This document shows positions 1 to 7,166 of a DNA stretch of 64,000 nucleotides, in pieces (the first letter of the stretch is position 1; every line of letters begins with the position of its first letter). The DNA comes from Ancylobacter gelatini (GTDB lineage: Bacteria; Pseudomonadota; Alphaproteobacteria; Rhizobiales; Xanthobacteraceae). The DNA is taken from contig NZ_JAKVIL010000003.1 in the NCBI RefSeq assembly GCF_022601675.1, forward strand, positions 124,001 to 188,000, given 5' to 3'. A program made the translations under genes and the position numbers. Below the pieces are notes generated by a model. The model saw nothing but the letters and a program-made list of their open reading frames with translations, had not been told where the DNA came from and made no database searches.

Positions 1-1026
1 CGGCGCGGAGCGGGGGCGACCGACGGCCCGTTCACCTATGGCGCCGGCGAAGGCCTCGGCGTGCACCTGCTCACCGGCCCCATCGCCATCGAAGGGGCCG
101 AGCCCGGCGACGTGATCGAGGTGCGCATCCTCGACGCCTGGCCGCGCCCCAGCGCCAACCCGGCCTATGCCGGGCGCTTCTTCGGCTCGAACCCCTCGGC
201 CAATTGGGGCTTCCAGTACCAGGACCTGATCGAGGAGCCCAAGCCGCGCGAGGTGGTGACGATCTATGAGCTCGACATGGTCGAGGCGGCGGTGAAGGCG
301 CTCTATTCCTATCTCTGGACCCCGCAGACCGACCCGGACGGTGTCGTCCATCCGACCATCGACTATCCCGGCGTGCGGGTTGACCACACCACGATCAGCA
401 AGAAGGAAGGCATACTGTCGGGCATCAAGGTGCCGGCCCGGCTGCATTTCGGCACGATGGGACTTGCCCCGGCGGAGGCCGATTTCGTGTCCACGATTCC
501 GCCGAACTATACGGGCGGCAACATGGATGACTGGCGCATCGCCAAGGGCTCCCGCATGTACTACCCGGTCGCGGTTCCCGGCGGGCTGTTCTCCTGCGGC
601 GACGCGCATGCCTCGCAGGGCGACAGCGAGCTTTCCGGGACCGCCATCGAGATTTCGCTCACCGGCGAGTTCGAATTCATCCTGCACAAGAAAGCGGACC
701 TCGAAGGAACGATCCGCGAAGGGCTGAACCATCCCCTGCTTGAGAATGACGAGGTCTGGTCGGTCTACGGCTTCAGCGTGACCAATTATCTCGCCGAGCT
801 TGGGCCGGACCATCAGCTTGAAATCCTCAAGCGCTCCAGCCTCGACAACGCGATGCGCGATGCCTTCCGCAAGCTGCGCCGCTTCCTGATGACGGTGCAC
901 AAGCTCTCCGAGGACGAGGCGATCTCGCTGATGTCGGTCGCCGCCGATTTCGCCGTCACCCAGGTGGTCGACGCCAATTGGGGCGTCACCGGCTCGATCC
1001 GCAAGAGTCTCTTCGCCGGCCGTTGA
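1..1026 (+). CDS. Acetamidase/formamidase family protein, 5' end outside window
   Basis: The frame is open from base 1, so the gene begins upstream; about 341 C-terminal residues are visible, ending at TGA. The family (FmdA/AmdA) hydrolyses formamide, acetamide or short amides to the acid and ammonia in the cytoplasm. Visible family features are the PGDVIEV segment near base 108 and the strongly conserved GDAHASQGDSELSGTAIE block near 598-650. The protein aligns residue for residue with the C-terminal half of the next gene (both end in a VVD-NWGV segment followed by a short basic tail), so the two are tandem paralogues. A GTG at 61 is internal to the alignment and is not the start. The natural substrate cannot be read from the sequence. 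Confidence 0.88.
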   Translation, partial: RRGAGATDGPFTYGAGEGLGVHLLTGPIAIEGAEPGDVIEVRILDAWPRPSANPAYAGRFFGSNPSANWGFQYQDLIEEPKPREVVTIYELDMVEAAVKALYSYLWTPQTDPDGVVHPTIDYPGVRVDHTTISKKEGILSGIKVPARLHFGTMGLAPAEADFVSTIPPNYTGGNMDDWRIAKGSRMYYPVAVPGGLFSCGDAHASQGDSELSGTAIEISLTGEFEFILHKKADLEGTIREGLNHPLLENDEVWSVYGFSVTNYLAELGPDHQLEILKRSSLDNAMRDAFRKLRRFLMTVHKLSEDEAISLMSVAADFAVTQVVDANWGVTGSIRKSLFAGR

Positions 1027-1055
1027 GAGCCTGTCCGGATCGGCCCCTGCGGCTC

Positions 1056-1069
1056 TGGGCATGCCAAAG
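1056..1069. promoter_or_regulatory. Operator-like palindrome upstream of the AraC-amidase fusion
   Basis: CTGGGCATGCCAAA (1056-1069, using the base numbering of the palindrome centred between 1061 and 1062) matches 12 of 14 positions of the perfect palindrome TTTGGCATGCCAAA found at 14995-15008 next to the GntR regulator. It lies in the 87-bp gap between the two amidase genes, 45 bp before the ATG at 1114. I infer that the GntR regulator at 14184-14867 may also bind here; a single short match can arise by chance. Confidence 0.4.
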
Positions 1070-1113
1070 GCATAATCCTTGCTTGAATCGACCTCCATGC
1101 CGAGGTTCGAACC

Positions 1114-3450
1114 ATGACCGCCCAGCCGTTCACCAGCGAGTCCTATTCCGGGGACGCGCGCGAGCGCGCCTGGCAGGACGTGCTCGCCGGCTTCGGATTG
1201 CAGTCGCATGGCGTGCGCACCGGCTCGCCCACGCACGCGACGGCGCTTTCGCGCCTCTCCTCGCTCGGGGTGCGGATCGGCCATCTGACGGCAGATGCCC
1301 AGGTCCTGCGCCCGCAGCTCGCGCGCACAGGCCTGCCGCTCCTGCTGCTGCCGTTGGAAAACAGCGCGGTTCTCATCATGGATGGCGAGCCGGAGATCGT
1401 TCCGGCCGGCCAGGTCATCCTGGCGCCGCGGGCGGCGGAGTGGCAGATGCAGTTCCAGCGCGGGCTGCGCGCCGTCGTGCTCGCGGTGCCGGTCGACGCG
1501 TTTCGAGGGCGCAAGGCGTCTCCGCTCGCCGATTGCCGGCCGCGCGTCTTCGACGCCGACGGGCTGCCGGATATTCTCGCCCGAACCGTGCAGGCCGCCG
1601 CCACTTCGCTCGACCGGCTCTCCGAGCCCGAATGGGAGGCCGTGGCGCAGAGCGCCGCCGATCTTCTCCTCGTGCTGTCGGCGGAACTGACGGCGAACAG
1701 AACCGATTCCTCGTCGAGCCGCGCCGCTCTGCTCCAGCGCATCTACGCAACCATCGAGCGGAGCGTCGGCAGCGAGGACACGTCGATCGCCGAGGTGGCG
1801 CAGGCCGTGGGCATATCCGAGCGCTATCTGCAGAAGCTGTTCGAAAGCACGGGCGAGAGTTTCAGCCATTATGTGCGCGAGCGGCGTCTCCAGCGGGCCT
1901 GGCACGACCTCGCCAATCCTGCCGAGACGGCGGTGCCGATCTCCGAGGTCGCCTATCGCTATGGCTTTGCCGATTCCGCTCATTTCAGCCGCCTGTTCCG
2001 CGAGCGCTTCGGCCTACCCCCGCGCGAGCTGCGCCGGCGCGAGACGGACCGGCAGAGCCAGGGCGCGCTGTCGAACGGCCAGCGCGGCTGGCCGCAGGAG
2101 GCGCTGGTACAGTTGCGCGCGCGCCAGACCAAGGCGGAGCCGGACACGCGCCGCAGCGTGCTGCTCGACAGCGTCGAGCCTGAAGACCCGCCGCAGGCAC
2201 CGGCGCGCCATTACCTGCCGGTGCATGCCCAGCATGTGCACTGGGGTTATTTCAGCCGCTCGCTCAAGCCGTTGCTGGAGATTGCCTCCGGCGACATCGT
2301 CACCATCGAGACACTGACCCAGCACGCCTCCGACGATCCGCAGCGCATGATCGAGGGCGATGCGGGGGCGGAGAGCGTGTTCCATTGGACACCGACGGCG
2401 AAGGCGGTGGATCGGCGCGGTGCGGGCCCGCTCGACGCCTCGGTTTTTGGCCGCGGAGCGGGTGAAGGGTTTGGCGTGCATATCTGCACCGGCCCGATCG
2501 CGGTGCGCGGCGCCCAGCCCGGCGACGTGCTGGAGGTGCATATTCTCGATATCGAGCCCCGTCCCTCGCGCCATCCAGACCATGCCGGGCGGGTCTTCGG
2601 CAGCAGCGTCGCCGCGTGGTGGGGATTCCACTATTCGGAGTTCCTCAGCGAGCCGCACCCGCGCGAGACGGTCACCGTCTATGAGATCGTCACGGACACC
2701 GACCAGCCTTATGCCCAGGCGGTGCATTCCTATCGATGGGAGGCGCAGACCGATCCCTATGGCGTCCGGCATGCGCTCTACGACTATCCCGGCGTCCCGG
2801 TCCTTCCCGGTACGGTCAAGCTGCAGACGGATGTGCTCGACGGCATCCGCATTCCGCTGCGGCCGCATTTCGGCGTCATTGCGGTGGCCCCGCGCGAAGC
2901 CGAACTCGTCGACTCGGTGCCGCCGGCCTATTTCGGCGGCAACCTCGACAACTGGCGGCTCGGCAAGGGCGCGACGGTGTACTTGCCGGTGTCGGTTCCC
3001 GGCGCGCTGCTGTCGGTCGGCGATCCGCATGCGGCGCAGGGCGACGGCGAATTATCGGGCACGGCGATCGAGTGCTCGATGACCGGCACCTTCCGCGTCG
3101 TTCTGCACAAGAAGGCCGACGTTGCCGGGACGCTGCTTGCCGACCTGACCTATCCGCTGATCGAGACGCCGGAGGACTGGATCCTGACCGGCTTCAGCCA
3201 CCCCAATTATCTCGCCGAATTCGGCGCCGACGGTCAGAGCGAGGTCTATGCCAAGTCGTCGCTCGACCTCGCCATGCGCGACGCCTTCAGAAAGGTGCGG
3301 CGATTCCTCATGACGACGAAGGGTTTGAGCGAGGATGAGGCAATCGCGCTGATGTCGGCGGCCGTCGATTTCGGCATCACCCAGGTCGTCGATGGCAATT
3401 GGGGCGTCCATGCCATTCTGAGCAAGCGGCTGTTTTCCGATCGGGGATAA
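1114..3450 (+). CDS. AraC-type regulator fused to acetamidase/formamidase
   Basis: One uninterrupted 778-codon frame encodes two proteins usually separate. Residues about 1-200 resemble the ligand-binding half of AraC/XylS regulators (AraC_binding_2 type). Residues about 223-305 form the double helix-turn-helix: first helix set around SIAEVAQAVGISERYLQKLF, second around ISEVAYRYGFADSAHFSRLF, ending in the usual F-G-P-R-LRR. A charged linker follows, and from about residue 365 (ARHYLPVHAQHVHWGYFSR) to the end there is a full-length acetamidase/formamidase with the GDPHAAQGDGELSGTAIE block. The amidase half is closely similar to the partial gene upstream. I infer either a DNA-bound enzyme that senses and consumes its amide ligand, or an amidase with a dedicated sensor. 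No stop or frameshift is visible at the junction (about 2030-2210). Start ATG at 1114. Confidence 0.9.
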   Translation: MTAQPFTSESYSGDARERAWQDVLAGFGLQSHGVRTGSPTHATALSRLSSLGVRIGHLTADAQVLRPQLARTGLPLLLLPLENSAVLIMDGEPEIVPAGQVILAPRAAEWQMQFQRGLRAVVLAVPVDAFRGRKASPLADCRPRVFDADGLPDILARTVQAAATSLDRLSEPEWEAVAQSAADLLLVLSAELTANRTDSSSSRAALLQRIYATIERSVGSEDTSIAEVAQAVGISERYLQKLFESTGESFSHYVRERRLQRAWHDLANPAETAVPISEVAYRYGFADSAHFSRLFRERFGLPPRELRRRETDRQSQGALSNGQRGWPQEALVQLRARQTKAEPDTRRSVLLDSVEPEDPPQAPARHYLPVHAQHVHWGYFSRSLKPLLEIASGDIVTIETLTQHASDDPQRMIEGDAGAESVFHWTPTAKAVDRRGAGPLDASVFGRGAGEGFGVHICTGPIAVRGAQPGDVLEVHILDIEPRPSRHPDHAGRVFGSSVAAWWGFHYSEFLSEPHPRETVTVYEIVTDTDQPYAQAVHSYRWEAQTDPYGVRHALYDYPGVPVLPGTVKLQTDVLDGIRIPLRPHFGVIAVAPREAELVDSVPPAYFGGNLDNWRLGKGATVYLPVSVPGALLSVGDPHAAQGDGELSGTAIECSMTGTFRVVLHKKADVAGTLLADLTYPLIETPEDWILTGFSHPNYLAEFGADGQSEVYAKSSLDLAMRDAFRKVRRFLMTTKGLSEDEAIALMSAAVDFGITQVVDGNWGVHAILSKRLFSDRG

Positions 3451-3790: not shown

Positions 3791-5380
3791 ATGAGAATCG
3801 ATGCGGACGTCCTGATCGTCGGAGCCGGCCCTACGGGATTGATGCTGGCCGTGGAACTTCAGCGCCGGGGCGTCGGCTGCCTGCTCATCGACGCCCATGA
3901 CAGGCCGCTGACCTGGGACCGGGCCACCGTCGTTCATCCTCGGTCGATCGAGATATTCGATTCGCTGGGGCTCGCGGATCGCCTGCTGAAGGCGGGCGTC
4001 AAGCAGCGGACGGCTCGCATCCATTCCAATGGCAAAGCACTGGGAGAGGTCGACCTTTCCCTCAGCGGCAGCCGCTATCCCTTCAATCTTGGTGTCTCCG
4101 AAGAGGTCACGGAGGCGATCCTCACGGCTTATCTCGTGCAACTCGACGGAGCGGTGACCCGGTCCACCCGATTGATCGGCCTCGACGAGCGGGACGACGG
4201 CGTGCTGGCCACGCTCGCCAGCGACGGCGTGGAACGGCAGGTCTTCGTGCGCTGGGTGGTCGGCTGCGATGGACATCACAGCACGGTCCGCTCGCTCACC
4301 GGCATCGAACAGGACGGGCACGACATCGAGGAGCCATGGGCGGTGTTCGACACCACCATCGACGGCTGGCCTCATTCCCATGAAGCCAATTACGCCTATC
4401 TCGACGAGCCGCCGATCATCCTGACCGCCCTGCCTGACGAGCGCTGGCGGGTGTACCTCCGGCCGAGTTCCGAGCAGGCCGACCTGGTGGCCGATGCGAC
4501 ACGCACCCTGCGCCAATACGTGCCCGATGCGCTCTTTACGGCGGTAGCAAACCCGACGCGCTTCCGGTGTCACACGAAAGTGGCGGCAAAGTACCGCTCC
4601 GGGCGTCTGCTCATTGCGGGCGACGCGGCGCATACCTGTAGCCCGATCCAGGGTCACGGCATGAATAGCGGCCTGCAGGACGCGTTCAATCTCGCCTGGA
4701 AGCTCGCGCTCGTCTGCAAGGGCGTTTGCTCGGAGGCCCTGCTGGACAGCTATGAGGCCGAACGGCGCCCGGTGGCGCAGATGTTCACCGCGTCGGGAGA
4801 TGAGGCCGATCATGCCCAGATGCTGAAAAGCCCGGATGATCGCCGCGCCCGCGATGAATTCATCCGCGGGATTTTTGCCAACCGGGCGACCCGTCACCAG
4901 GAAGCGGTCGCCGAAGCCGAGTTGAATATCGACTATGGCGCGTCACCCATCGTGATGGGCCTGCGGCACGACGCGCTCGCCGCGGGCCAGCTGTGGCCGA
5001 GCGATATCGAAATCCGGCCGGCCGAGGAGGGGGCTGTCGCGTTCAAGGCCGGTGCCGGTCATTGGGGCCATATCGCCATCGTCATCGGTGGCGATATGGC
5101 GGTGCCTGACGAACTCAGCGGTCTCCGCGACATGCTCGACGCCCATCTCGGAAGCGCCATTCTGGAGGCCAGCATGCTGCTCGCCACGCAGACCCAGGCC
5201 AACGGCTTTACCCGCATCGACGAGGCGGTCGCGGAGCGGCTGGGCGTCCGTGGTGTCGCTCTCTTCGTCGTTCGGCCCGACGGATATCTCGGCCTGCGTG
5301 CCGATCAGCACCACGGCGAAGCTCTGGCTGCTTATGCTGAACGGCTCGGCTCGCCAGCGATGCCGGCACGGGAGCGGTGA
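3791..5380 (+). CDS. FAD-dependent aromatic-ring monooxygenase (PheA/TfdB/MhpA family)
   Basis: The 529-residue protein belongs to the group A flavoprotein hydroxylases (FAD_binding_3) that use NAD(P)H and O2 to hydroxylate phenolic or heteroaromatic rings. Visible motifs in order: the dinucleotide fingerprint VLIVGAGPTGLMLA (residues 8-21), the DG motif GCDGHHSTVR (about 157), and the GD motif LLIAGDAAHTCSPIQGHG (about 272-289) followed by NLAWKLALV. The C-terminal thioredoxin-like extension typical of phenol hydroxylases is present (about 400-529). Length is normal for 3-(3-hydroxyphenyl)propionate or pentachlorophenol hydroxylase types. It sits alone after the amidase genes and converges on the amidohydrolase at 5487; substrate unknown, though an amide-substituted ring would fit the neighbourhood. 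Confidence 0.85.
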   Translation: MRIDADVLIVGAGPTGLMLAVELQRRGVGCLLIDAHDRPLTWDRATVVHPRSIEIFDSLGLADRLLKAGVKQRTARIHSNGKALGEVDLSLSGSRYPFNLGVSEEVTEAILTAYLVQLDGAVTRSTRLIGLDERDDGVLATLASDGVERQVFVRWVVGCDGHHSTVRSLTGIEQDGHDIEEPWAVFDTTIDGWPHSHEANYAYLDEPPIILTALPDERWRVYLRPSSEQADLVADATRTLRQYVPDALFTAVANPTRFRCHTKVAAKYRSGRLLIAGDAAHTCSPIQGHGMNSGLQDAFNLAWKLALVCKGVCSEALLDSYEAERRPVAQMFTASGDEADHAQMLKSPDDRRARDEFIRGIFANRATRHQEAVAEAELNIDYGASPIVMGLRHDALAAGQLWPSDIEIRPAEEGAVAFKAGAGHWGHIAIVIGGDMAVPDELSGLRDMLDAHLGSAILEASMLLATQTQANGFTRIDEAVAERLGVRGVALFVVRPDGYLGLRADQHHGEALAAYAERLGSPAMPARER

Positions 5381-5431
5381 GCATCAGGGTGCTCACGGCC
5401 CAGGGATTCTGGCGCGGACAGTGCCAGCTTC

Positions 5432-5446
5432 AAACGGTTCCGTTTT
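5432..5446. terminator. Weak hairpin between convergent genes
   Basis: AAACG-GTTC-CGTTT forms a 5-bp stem with a 4-base loop, with a short A run on one side and a T run on the other, midway between the convergent genes ending at 5380 and 5487. It could act as a weak bidirectional terminator; the stem is short. Confidence 0.25.
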
Positions 5447-5486
5447 CGGGGATCAGATCGAGCGGGACGCATAAAATTTGCCGCCC

Positions 5487-7166
5487 CTAAACCTTGCCGG
5501 CACCATGCACCAGTCTTCCGTTGACCAGCGTCATCTCGCACCGAAGTTGTCGCACCGCGTCAGGGGTGAGGAGCCGGGGATCGTTTGACAGAACGGCGAG
5601 ATCCGCAGCAAAGCCGGGCGCGAGCGGGCCCTTCCATGTCTCGTCGAAGGTGAGCTGGGCGCCGGCGACGGTAAACAAGCGCAGCGCGGTCTCGACGTCC
5701 AGCCTTTGACCAGGGCCGATCGTTCGGCCCGTCTTGCGCTCCTGCCGCGCCATCGTCACCCACAGAGTGAAGAACGGGTCGTAGGGGATGTTGTCGGTTG
5801 CGATCGCGAGAGGCAGCCCGATATCCAGCATATGGCGATGCGGAACGACCAGATCGCCATCGTCCGGCTCGTCGACATAGGCATGGCCGCCCTTCCAGAG
5901 GAAATAGGTCGGGATGGTGGTGACGATCACGCCGAGAGCCCTGAGCGTGTGTAAATCCTCCATTCGGGCGCGTGCCACATGCTGGATCACCCATCGCCGT
6001 CCCGCGAGCGGGTAGCGCTCGTTGATGGCCAGGAGCACCGGCACGATTTCATGCAGCTGATCGGAAACGATGGTGTTGAGGCGCAGGTCGTGCTCCGCCG
6101 CGAGGAAGCACACCTCGCGGAATTCCTCGCGGGTGTAAGCCTGCTCGACGAAGCCGGACCAGCCGGTATTCGGCAGATCGGCGCGCGCCAGCTCGGCCAC
6201 CACGGGATCGCCGCCATAAGCGATGTGCACACCGGAAATATTGAGCCATGGATCGCCCAATCCCTTCCCGCGGGCATAGGCCAGCCAGTCGCGCATCACG
6301 CGCTGGGCCTCGGCGACGCCGGACCAGCTGGGGCTGATGCAAAGACCGGTACGCATCGTCAGTTCGCCGCGCTCCCACAGTGCGCGATAGACGGAAATGG
6401 TTTCGGGTGCGGAGCCGTGGCCTTCATAGACGCTGGTCGTGCCGCAGGCATGGTAGAGGGCGATCGAGCGCCGCAGACCTTCCAGCCGCGCGTCGAAACC
6501 GAAGCGCGGGACGGCGGGGAGCATGTCGAATTCGACCGTGGGGCGGCCATTGTGCTCGATGATCGCGCCGGTCGGGTCTCCGGTGACCTCATTGCAGACG
6601 AAATCCACCCCCCGGCAACGCGGGCAGCTGTGGCGGTTCAGCCCGTTGAGGGCCAACGCCCGCGAATTGAGCGCCGTGTGGCCAGGCGGCACGCCCCAAT
6701 TTCCGAAATGACCGGGGATATAGACAGGATTGTCCGGGGCCACGCGATCGAGTTCGTCGCGGGTCGGCATGCGACGCTCGGTCAGGCCGGCGACAGCATC
6801 GAAATAGTGGGGAGGCTCGCCCACCGGCATGGTGACGATCCACTCGCCGGGTGCCGTCGCCCGGGCGGCAGCGGCGATCCGCGCCAGGATTTCGGCGACC
6901 GACCCGGCGCCGGCGAGCGAGAGGCGCTGAAGCTTCAACCCTTCCCGCTCCATATGGGCATGGGTGTCGTTGAAGCCCGGCATGACGAAGCGGCCGTCGA
7001 GGTCGATCCGCCGCGTCTGGGCGCCCGCCCAGCCTTCGAGGATGTCGTCGCCCCCGCTCGCCACGATCCTGCCGCCCCGGATCGCCAGCGCGCGGGCTGA
7101 CGGGCGGGCGGGATCGAAGGTCAGGATATTGCCATTGTGCAGGATCAGATCGGCGGGGTCGCTCAT
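5487..7166 (-). CDS. Amidohydrolase family protein (Amidohydro_3, YtcJ-like)
   Basis: 559 residues starting at ATG 7166. This is a metal-dependent amidohydrolase of the YtcJ/AepA type. The N-terminal composite domain LILHNGNILTFD leads to GRFVMPGFNDTHAHME, where His69 and His71 form the HxH metal pair; later candidate ligands are in QHVARARM and the ATDNIPYDP segment near the C-terminus. The family hydrolyses amide, imide or cyclic amide bonds (cytosine, hydantoin and N-acyl amino acid relatives), but YtcJ-like members are mostly uncharacterised. It is the last gene of the leftward operon, 10 bp after the permease gene, which suggests that it acts on the imported compound or a product of it in the cytoplasm. 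Confidence 0.85.
   Translation of the reverse strand: MSDPADLILHNGNILTFDPARPSARALAIRGGRIVASGGDDILEGWAGAQTRRIDLDGRFVMPGFNDTHAHMEREGLKLQRLSLAGAGSVAEILARIAAAARATAPGEWIVTMPVGEPPHYFDAVAGLTERRMPTRDELDRVAPDNPVYIPGHFGNWGVPPGHTALNSRALALNGLNRHSCPRCRGVDFVCNEVTGDPTGAIIEHNGRPTVEFDMLPAVPRFGFDARLEGLRRSIALYHACGTTSVYEGHGSAPETISVYRALWERGELTMRTGLCISPSWSGVAEAQRVMRDWLAYARGKGLGDPWLNISGVHIAYGGDPVVAELARADLPNTGWSGFVEQAYTREEFREVCFLAAEHDLRLNTIVSDQLHEIVPVLLAINERYPLAGRRWVIQHVARARMEDLHTLRALGVIVTTIPTYFLWKGGHAYVDEPDDGDLVVPHRHMLDIGLPLAIATDNIPYDPFFTLWVTMARQERKTGRTIGPGQRLDVETALRLFTVAGAQLTFDETWKGPLAPGFAADLAVLSNDPRLLTPDAVRQLRCEMTLVNGRLVHGAGKV

Follow-up and report, generated by a model that had tools for sequence, protein, structure and literature searches.

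What is to be made of a single open frame which reads first as a transcriptional regulator and then as an enzyme? That is the question which this locus raises, and it can be divided into whether such a gene is genuine, from where its enzyme-like half derives, and how its product might act. The frame is found at positions 1114..3450 (+) of what is described here as the window, i.e., the whole of the analysed 64,000-nucleotide stretch, which by sequence match to its own genome is G000:C14:124001-188000. As seen upon checking the open frames of the window, it starts with an ATG and continues for 778 codons, with no internal stops. An AraC-acetamidase/formamidase fusion gene of 778 amino acids is indicated not only by that open frame but also by Pfam domains and by whole-length homologues.

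The amino-terminal part consists of an AraC_binding_2 sensor domain (residues 52-185; 1267..1668, +), with a Pfam score of 33.9 bits vs. a curated cut-off of 27, followed by an AraC-type double helix-turn-helix, HTH_18 (residues 229-309; 1798..2040, +), with 84.3 bits vs. 33.6. The features of the AraC/XylS family, that is, an N-terminal AraC_binding_2 together with a double HTH, are thus present above cut-off. Next comes a linker of about 50 residues (311-362; 2044..2199, +), which lacks any in-frame ATG and within which alignments of fusions reveal an RGxP motif (R324, G325, P327; 2083..2094, +). The remainder is an FmdA/AmdA amidase domain (residues 363-778; 2200..3447, +), to which the PDB structure 3b9t aligns over residues 365-777, and which Pfam detects as FmdA_AmdA (PF03069) at 108 bits vs. 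a curated cut-off of 27, with residues 601-760 as the best stretch. NCBIfam gave nothing above cut-offs among the 25 matches listed for the fusion query. A predicted model of the fusion, based on a 38-sequence alignment from which plasmid-derived rows and one frame with an internal stop (L024) were excluded, has a mean pLDDT of 77 and a pTM of 0.59, with pLDDT below 50 over linker residues 316-360. This model matches 3b9t, itself the crystal structure of a predicted acetamidase/formamidase, with a TM of 0.90 by target length and 58-59% identity, and matches AraC-type proteins such as CuxR more weakly. What an earlier note had described, i.e., an AraC sensor and double HTH joined to a complete amidase within one 778-codon frame, is therefore borne out by open frame, Pfam, and structure match alike. 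A very long antisense frame (window 1-1983, -) lies opposite the genes for amidase and AraC; such frames are common where coding DNA is rich in GC.

The same architecture occurs well beyond this one locus. The genome to which the window belongs carries a second full-length fusion (G000:C13:337619-339970, i.e., L112:8619-10970), which matches that of the window over C13:337637-339964 with 48% identity. The earlier note had proposed looking for the joint architecture in other genomes, and it is indeed found in family, order, phylum, and plasmid sets. Counted as match rows which span both parts, with the best few candidates per genome scored and with genomes shared between searches, fusions are present in at least 34 of 198 genomes (family search), at least 15 of 347 (order search), and at least 8 of 398 (phylum search), while a class search using the AraC part (385 genomes) supplied two additional fusion genomes, G918 and G1174. 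From plasmid records, 16 of 1858 matches cover at least 80% of the fusion query, and the hosts of these plasmid fusions include Rhizobium, Neorhizobium, Sinorhizobium, Novosphingobium, Variovorax, Caballeronia, and Paraburkholderia.

A stop or frameshift concealed between about 2030 and 2210, which the earlier note had named as what would undo the fusion, finds no support in these copies. Distinct fused frames number 62, and 61 of them are open throughout. The other, L024 (genome G114), has one internal stop, within the amidase part, at a position which in other fusions is Glu. As these 62 frames were picked for having an AraC part between the same two stops as the amidase, that count favours open frames, and for this reason the junction count was repeated on loci chosen without that criterion: among 64 neighbourhood loci an AraC match is followed by an amidase match in 49, and in 49 of 49 one open frame extends up to the amidase. 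Nine further fusions of the F2 type, as defined below, from Ancylobacter genomes are all open too, and of the stops flagged in 4 of 43 spanning rows of the family search, those of G010, G062, and G195 are terminal, with the fourth that of G114. That an assembly or sequencing artefact hides a stop or frameshift at the junction can accordingly be dismissed as having next to no probability, since the one stopped frame in 62 is stopped elsewhere than at the junction and independent copies, i.e., the open junctions, the second fusion in the genome itself, and representatives from plasmid as well as genome collections, refute it. The fusion frame at 1114-3450 is real, a single coding frame which is kept by selection.

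One frame might still give rise to two products, with separate regulator and amidase proteins made either from an internal start within the linker or by proteolysis. The low model confidence of the linker would be consistent with this, as would its fast evolution, with a dN/dS of 0.437 (here and below the median of pairwise Nei-Gojobori values within Ancylobacter, with 55 pairs of 11 sequences for the fusion and 45 pairs of 10 for the plain amidase). Only 22 of the 62 fusions, however, have an in-frame ATG within the linker or close to it, and its position shifts among them; the window has none, possessing instead GTG and TTG codons there. A conserved internal start is rejected on this basis. 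The linker's RGxP motif, moreover, shows no variation in either of two overlapping alignments, with 38 of 38 fusions having it in each. Production as two separate proteins thus seems quite improbable.

From where, then, does the amidase half come? Directly upstream of the fusion is a plain FmdA amidase (1..1026, +), recognized by Pfam, genome match, and tree, the 5' part of which precedes the window (full extent G000:C14:123791-125023). The earlier note had taken that neighbour as evidence of a local duplicate from which the fusion partner arose, an idea which did not withstand a tree of 141 amidase domains (maximum likelihood by a quick method, with SH-aLRT support and midpoint root). Amidase frames which were cut by a locus end or which scored below 150 bits were left out of the tree, and L024 was kept, both there and in residue counts, with its stop treated as a gap. 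The 62 fused amidase domains and one fragment (L054) constitute one side of a branch (SH-aLRT 98), and the first partner of this fused clade (91) is a set of 28 standalone amidases (97), with an RRxF twin-arginine-like signal at every N-terminus. The plain amidases which adjoin window-type fusions are instead a group of their own, of 39 (SH-aLRT 99), and the separation of these groups is independent of the midpoint root. As fused domains and adjacent plain amidases fall into separate groups, the amidase half does not derive from the local plain amidase, and an origin by local duplication is rejected. On the evidence here, the fusion appears to have arisen once and to have been kept across Alpha- and Betaproteobacteria.

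Three observations touch upon this history. In Thiomonas delicata, at about 3000-5897 of L054, the fusion's amidase half is found with what looks, in a reader's judgement of the sequence, to be transposase-like sequence in place of the AraC half. Among six unfused AraC homologues from the class search, no amidase was detected in the stretches examined. In G841 (L109:7641-9699), a short FmdA amidase is followed by an unfused AraC homologue, the C-terminus of which lacks RGxP, and this arrangement could represent a pre-fusion state.

Two types of fusion are distinguished here, with F1 the fusions of a binding-protein operon and F2 a clade of 11 fused tree rows (support 95). Of the 64 loci compared, 49 have a fusion and 15 do not. 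The order binding protein (SBP_bac_3), fused permease/ATPase, plain amidase, and then fusion, all on one strand, is seen in 26 of the 49, and the plain amidase of the window is the third gene of such a unit. The ABC binding protein of this F1 operon is of an amino-acid type, and a RidA-type gene is found 3' of the fusion in 12 loci. Two loci have the same operon genes rearranged around the fusion. In the first, a plasmid of Caballeronia zhejiangensis (L132, 263-10343), the fusion is read divergently from the genes for binding protein, permease/ATPase, and amidase, beyond which are genes for a GTP-binding protein and for nitrile hydratase, neighbours which hint at a nitrile-amide-acid route. 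In the second, Paraburkholderia FT54, the fusion is convergent with the operon genes. A Tat-type amidase is read divergently from the F2 fusion in L091, L092, L093, L095, L096, L129, and L134, and in L094, L112, L128, and L130 the F2 fusion has no amidase neighbour in the stretch. In the window's own genome, the F2 fusion and a DctP-type TRAP transporter gene are read divergently, with a gamma-glutamyltranspeptidase gene beyond the latter. In still other loci the fusion comes after a short FmdA gene (L051-L053, L118, L123, L125, L136). An FAD-binding monooxygenase (PF01494) and an opposite-strand amidohydrolase (PF07969) are found downstream of the fusion at window 3791-7166. These were considered as members of the unit and then dropped, since among the 64 loci they are seen only at the window's own. 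Taken together, the neighbours (amino-acid-type ABC transporter, RidA, and, once, nitrile hydratase) fit with an amide of amino-acid-like size, and with no more than that.

If the fusion is a regulator, then DNA for it to act upon would be expected, and candidates exist. A conserved block upstream of the binding-protein gene was seen upon aligning 14 Ancylobacter loci and was seen again in other genera. As CAA-N6-GTRCG-N6-GACAA, with at most one mismatch, it is present upstream of the binding-protein gene at 27 of the 28 loci with this operon (L132 has a weaker site), and it is positioned about 110 bp before the F1 operon. An earlier pattern with a different spacing gave one chance match and was abandoned in favour of the N6 spacing. 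No second site is found, at up to one mismatch, between plain amidase and fusion in F1 loci. The conserved GACAA may be part of a promoter -35 rather than contact bases.

A weight matrix built from these 27 sites was run on 20 other fusion loci, taking the best site within 600 bp upstream. In 11 of the 20 that site beat all random segments (256-288 each), although L132, one of the 11, had been part of the cross-genus alignment. L093 is marginal, with 12 of 275 random segments as good. The other 8 of 20 lack a site in the 600 bp next to the fusion; in 7 of these 8 the fusion is preceded by a short amidase gene, such that the site could sit further off, as partial matches suggest. In three F2 loci (L092, L096, L129) two sites are found back to back, 26-27 bp apart, with one facing each divergent gene. 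As a control, plain-amidase loci without a fusion were scanned over 1000 bp, and 24 of 25 score -4.4 or less, having set aside 8 of 33 control rows as derived from fusion-bearing loci (L039, L092, L093, L119, L121, L122, L125, L126). L064, L065, L067, and L083 have low scores which nevertheless are above all random segments of their short loci. In L110 (G017) a candidate site with a score of 7.1, higher than 183 of 183 random segments, is found upstream of a short amidase, with no fusion found in the stretch. A similar-scoring site is found at L158:4511 (-), about 1.2 kb upstream of an AraC homologue which is not fused, so that the element may be common to a broader AraC subfamily and may be older than the fusion.

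Genome-wide, the exact form CAAN6GTRCGN6GACAA has 20 matches in 32 genomes, 19 of which lie 4.03-4.25 kb before an F1 fusion and on the same strand. Put differently, the exact pattern precedes the F1 fusion in 19 of 22 F1 genomes, with the remaining match on another contig of G187, and it has zero matches in the 10 genomes without an F1 match in the genome searches described above. A reversed control pattern yielded 5 matches in the 32 genomes. For F2 fusions the corresponding pattern is CAANTTTTTGTGCGC, with 16 matches in 22 genomes, 16 of 16 at a distance of 65-405 bp from an F2 fusion as measured to its first matched residue, and with zero matches in the six genomes without an F2 match and 0 for the reversed control. 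This F2 element is found directly before the fusion gene or between the fusion and a divergent amidase or transporter. Not all of these genomes contributed to the choice of patterns: nine of the matched F2 fusions, all from Ancylobacter and each with its site 70-87 bp upstream of where the N-terminal match begins, and six matched F1 genomes (G151, G195, G187, G086, G026, G066) had not been inspected beforehand. As the matched genomes are related, however, the matches are not independent.

The genome of the window illustrates both types. Its one exact F1-pattern match, at C14:120998, is about 3.0 kb before the window and upstream of this operon, and a one-mismatch match at C13:337548 precedes the second fusion, with the operator-like site 71 bp before that fusion's start. 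Allowing one mismatch gives 5 matches in this genome, four of them unrelated, vs. 7 in all for the reversed control, so that the F1 pattern is specific only when exact. A conserved DNA element near presumed target genes, as is looked for in AraC/XylS regulators, is in sum found here with exceptions, namely the F2 fusions of G010 and G234, which lack an exact CAANTTTTTGTGCGC match, the F1 fusions of G169, G181, and G254, which lack an exact F1-pattern match, and the 8 of 20 loci noted above. What is newly described are two candidate DNA elements, each of which precedes its own fusion type, i.e., that of the F1 operon and, for F2, CAANTTTTTGTGCGC.

Given the co-occurrence of an element with each fusion type, the fusion is very probably a regulator of amide uptake and hydrolysis which also controls itself. 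The reading which we prefer, and hold to be likely, is that of an amide-responsive one-component regulator, most probably an activator, which bears an amidase-fold domain and which controls its own operon. With F1, the fusion protein would act at the element about 110 bp upstream of the operon of binding protein, permease/ATPase, plain amidase, and fusion, binding to that element and activating; amide would be imported and hydrolysed, with the regulator produced alongside transporter and amidase. With F2, it would act at the element found by the fusion gene or between the fusion and the divergent amidase or transporter.

A different possibility is that the fusion is mainly an enzyme, its HTH serving to tether amidase at the operon or being idle, with some other regulator in control. 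Consistent with this, conservation between genera is higher for the amidase part, at about 58-82%, vs. about 27-52% for the AraC part, and RefSeq gives four of the copies viewed only the name ‘acetamidase/formamidase family protein’, that is, a name for the amidase half. Within Ancylobacter, however, while residues 1-200 evolve fast (dN/dS 0.254), the HTH (residues 201-310) is strongly conserved, with selection as strong (0.085) as that upon the amidase, and each fusion type has its own DNA element, almost exclusively beside that type. A mainly enzymatic role is therefore considered unlikely.

Less readily set aside is the converse, that the amidase domain has been retired from catalysis and functions solely as a ligand-binding sensor, like the aminotransferase fold of MocR/GabR regulators. 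To judge this, the fused domains were compared with 78 standalone relatives, among which 78 positions are at least 98% invariant (L054 was omitted from the residue counts). Position 403 is His in 78 of 78 plain relatives and Gln in 61 of 62 fusions (Gln403 in the window, 2320..2322, +), Tyr624 has become Leu in 62 of 62, Met622 has become Val, Ile, or Leu in 62 of 62, Gly590 is mostly Ala (52 of 62), and Asp526 is relaxed, retained in 12 of 62. Positions 403, 622, and 624 are thus near-invariant in the plain enzymes and changed in the fusions. In addition, most of the fusion loci compared have a plain amidase in the same unit or adjoining. These points favour a sensor. H403Q and Y624L are fusion-specific and could have altered catalysis.

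Against retirement, residues which are common to distant solved relatives are retained: GGNxD (608-612; 2935..2949, +) in 62 of 62 fusions, and GDxH (636-639), GDxE (643-646), and E653 (together 3019..3072, +) each in 61 or 62 of 62. Leu, moreover, is what is found at 624 in 3 of 4 distant solved relatives compared, so that Y624L need not end catalysis, while position 403 falls outside of those alignments. Purifying selection on the fused domain also resembles that on the plain neighbour (dN/dS 0.097 vs. 0.116), i.e., by these values it is as strong as on the plain enzyme. We take a purely sensory amidase domain to be a possible reading, though one which falls clearly short of even chances.

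Returning to the amide-responsive regulator, its amidase domain would be catalytically competent, presumably towards the same kind of amide as the operon's enzyme, and would report on or remove inducer at the promoter, resulting in a substrate-dependent off-switch. Catalysis at the promoter is the least certain component of this reading. Flux itself does not call for catalysis by the regulator, since a plain amidase is already encoded in the operon. In its fullest form, which is advanced only tentatively, these proteins would be autoregulating activators which destroy their own inducer: the promoter-bound AraC-amidase would hydrolyse the amide which is sensed, induction would end itself as substrate runs out, the plain amidase would carry the flux, and two paralogous types with distinct operators would do so within one genome.

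How does this compare with systems already known? Bifunctional enzyme-regulators, or trigger enzymes, such as Ada, which has an AraC-type HTH along with methyltransferase activity, and PutA combine catalysis and promoter binding in one chain. The fusion would resemble these if its one chain, both halves of which are conserved at the sequence level, combines putative catalysis with predicted promoter binding. To our knowledge, neither Ada nor PutA has an amidase of the FmdA/AmdA family. Members of that family (PF03069; PDB 3b9t, 2f4l, 2ii1, 3tkk, 5ubu, 2wkn) share with the fusion the whole domain and, as solved relatives, their common residues, to which the fusion adds a DNA-binding regulator along with its own Gln403 and Leu624. 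MocR/GabR proteins offer a precedent for enzyme folds in regulators, being transcription factors with a C-terminal enzyme fold. They differ in pairing a GntR-type winged HTH with an aminotransferase fold, whereas the fusion pairs an AraC HTH with an amidase and keeps the AraC sensor domain. The fusion is not a MocR, as Pfam gives AraC HTH plus FmdA_AmdA, but may, by analogy, work like one. NitR of Alcaligenes and Rhodococcus is an AraC-type activator of a nitrile operon, with the amide-like epsilon-caprolactam as effector (PMC6265244). It switches on an operon for hydrolysing C-N bonds in answer to an amide-like compound, and so provides a precedent for the present reading of the fusion. Comparing by description, no enzyme domain figures in what that source says of NitR (PMC6265244), while in the fusion a complete amidase follows the HTH. 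Among the matches listed from the open-access literature, no paper concerns an AraC-acetamidase/formamidase fusion.

The AraC-amidase fusion is thus probably an amide-responsive switch rather than a sequencing accident. Within one chain it combines a pathway's sensor with its enzyme, with a predicted operator at hand, and so provides a small system in which to ask whether a promoter-bound enzyme tunes its own induction by catalysis or an enzyme fold is kept only as a sensor. GenBank and RefSeq entries of these fusions carry the name of one half only, and annotations which name the proteins in that manner would be corrected. The fusions are also candidate amide biosensors.
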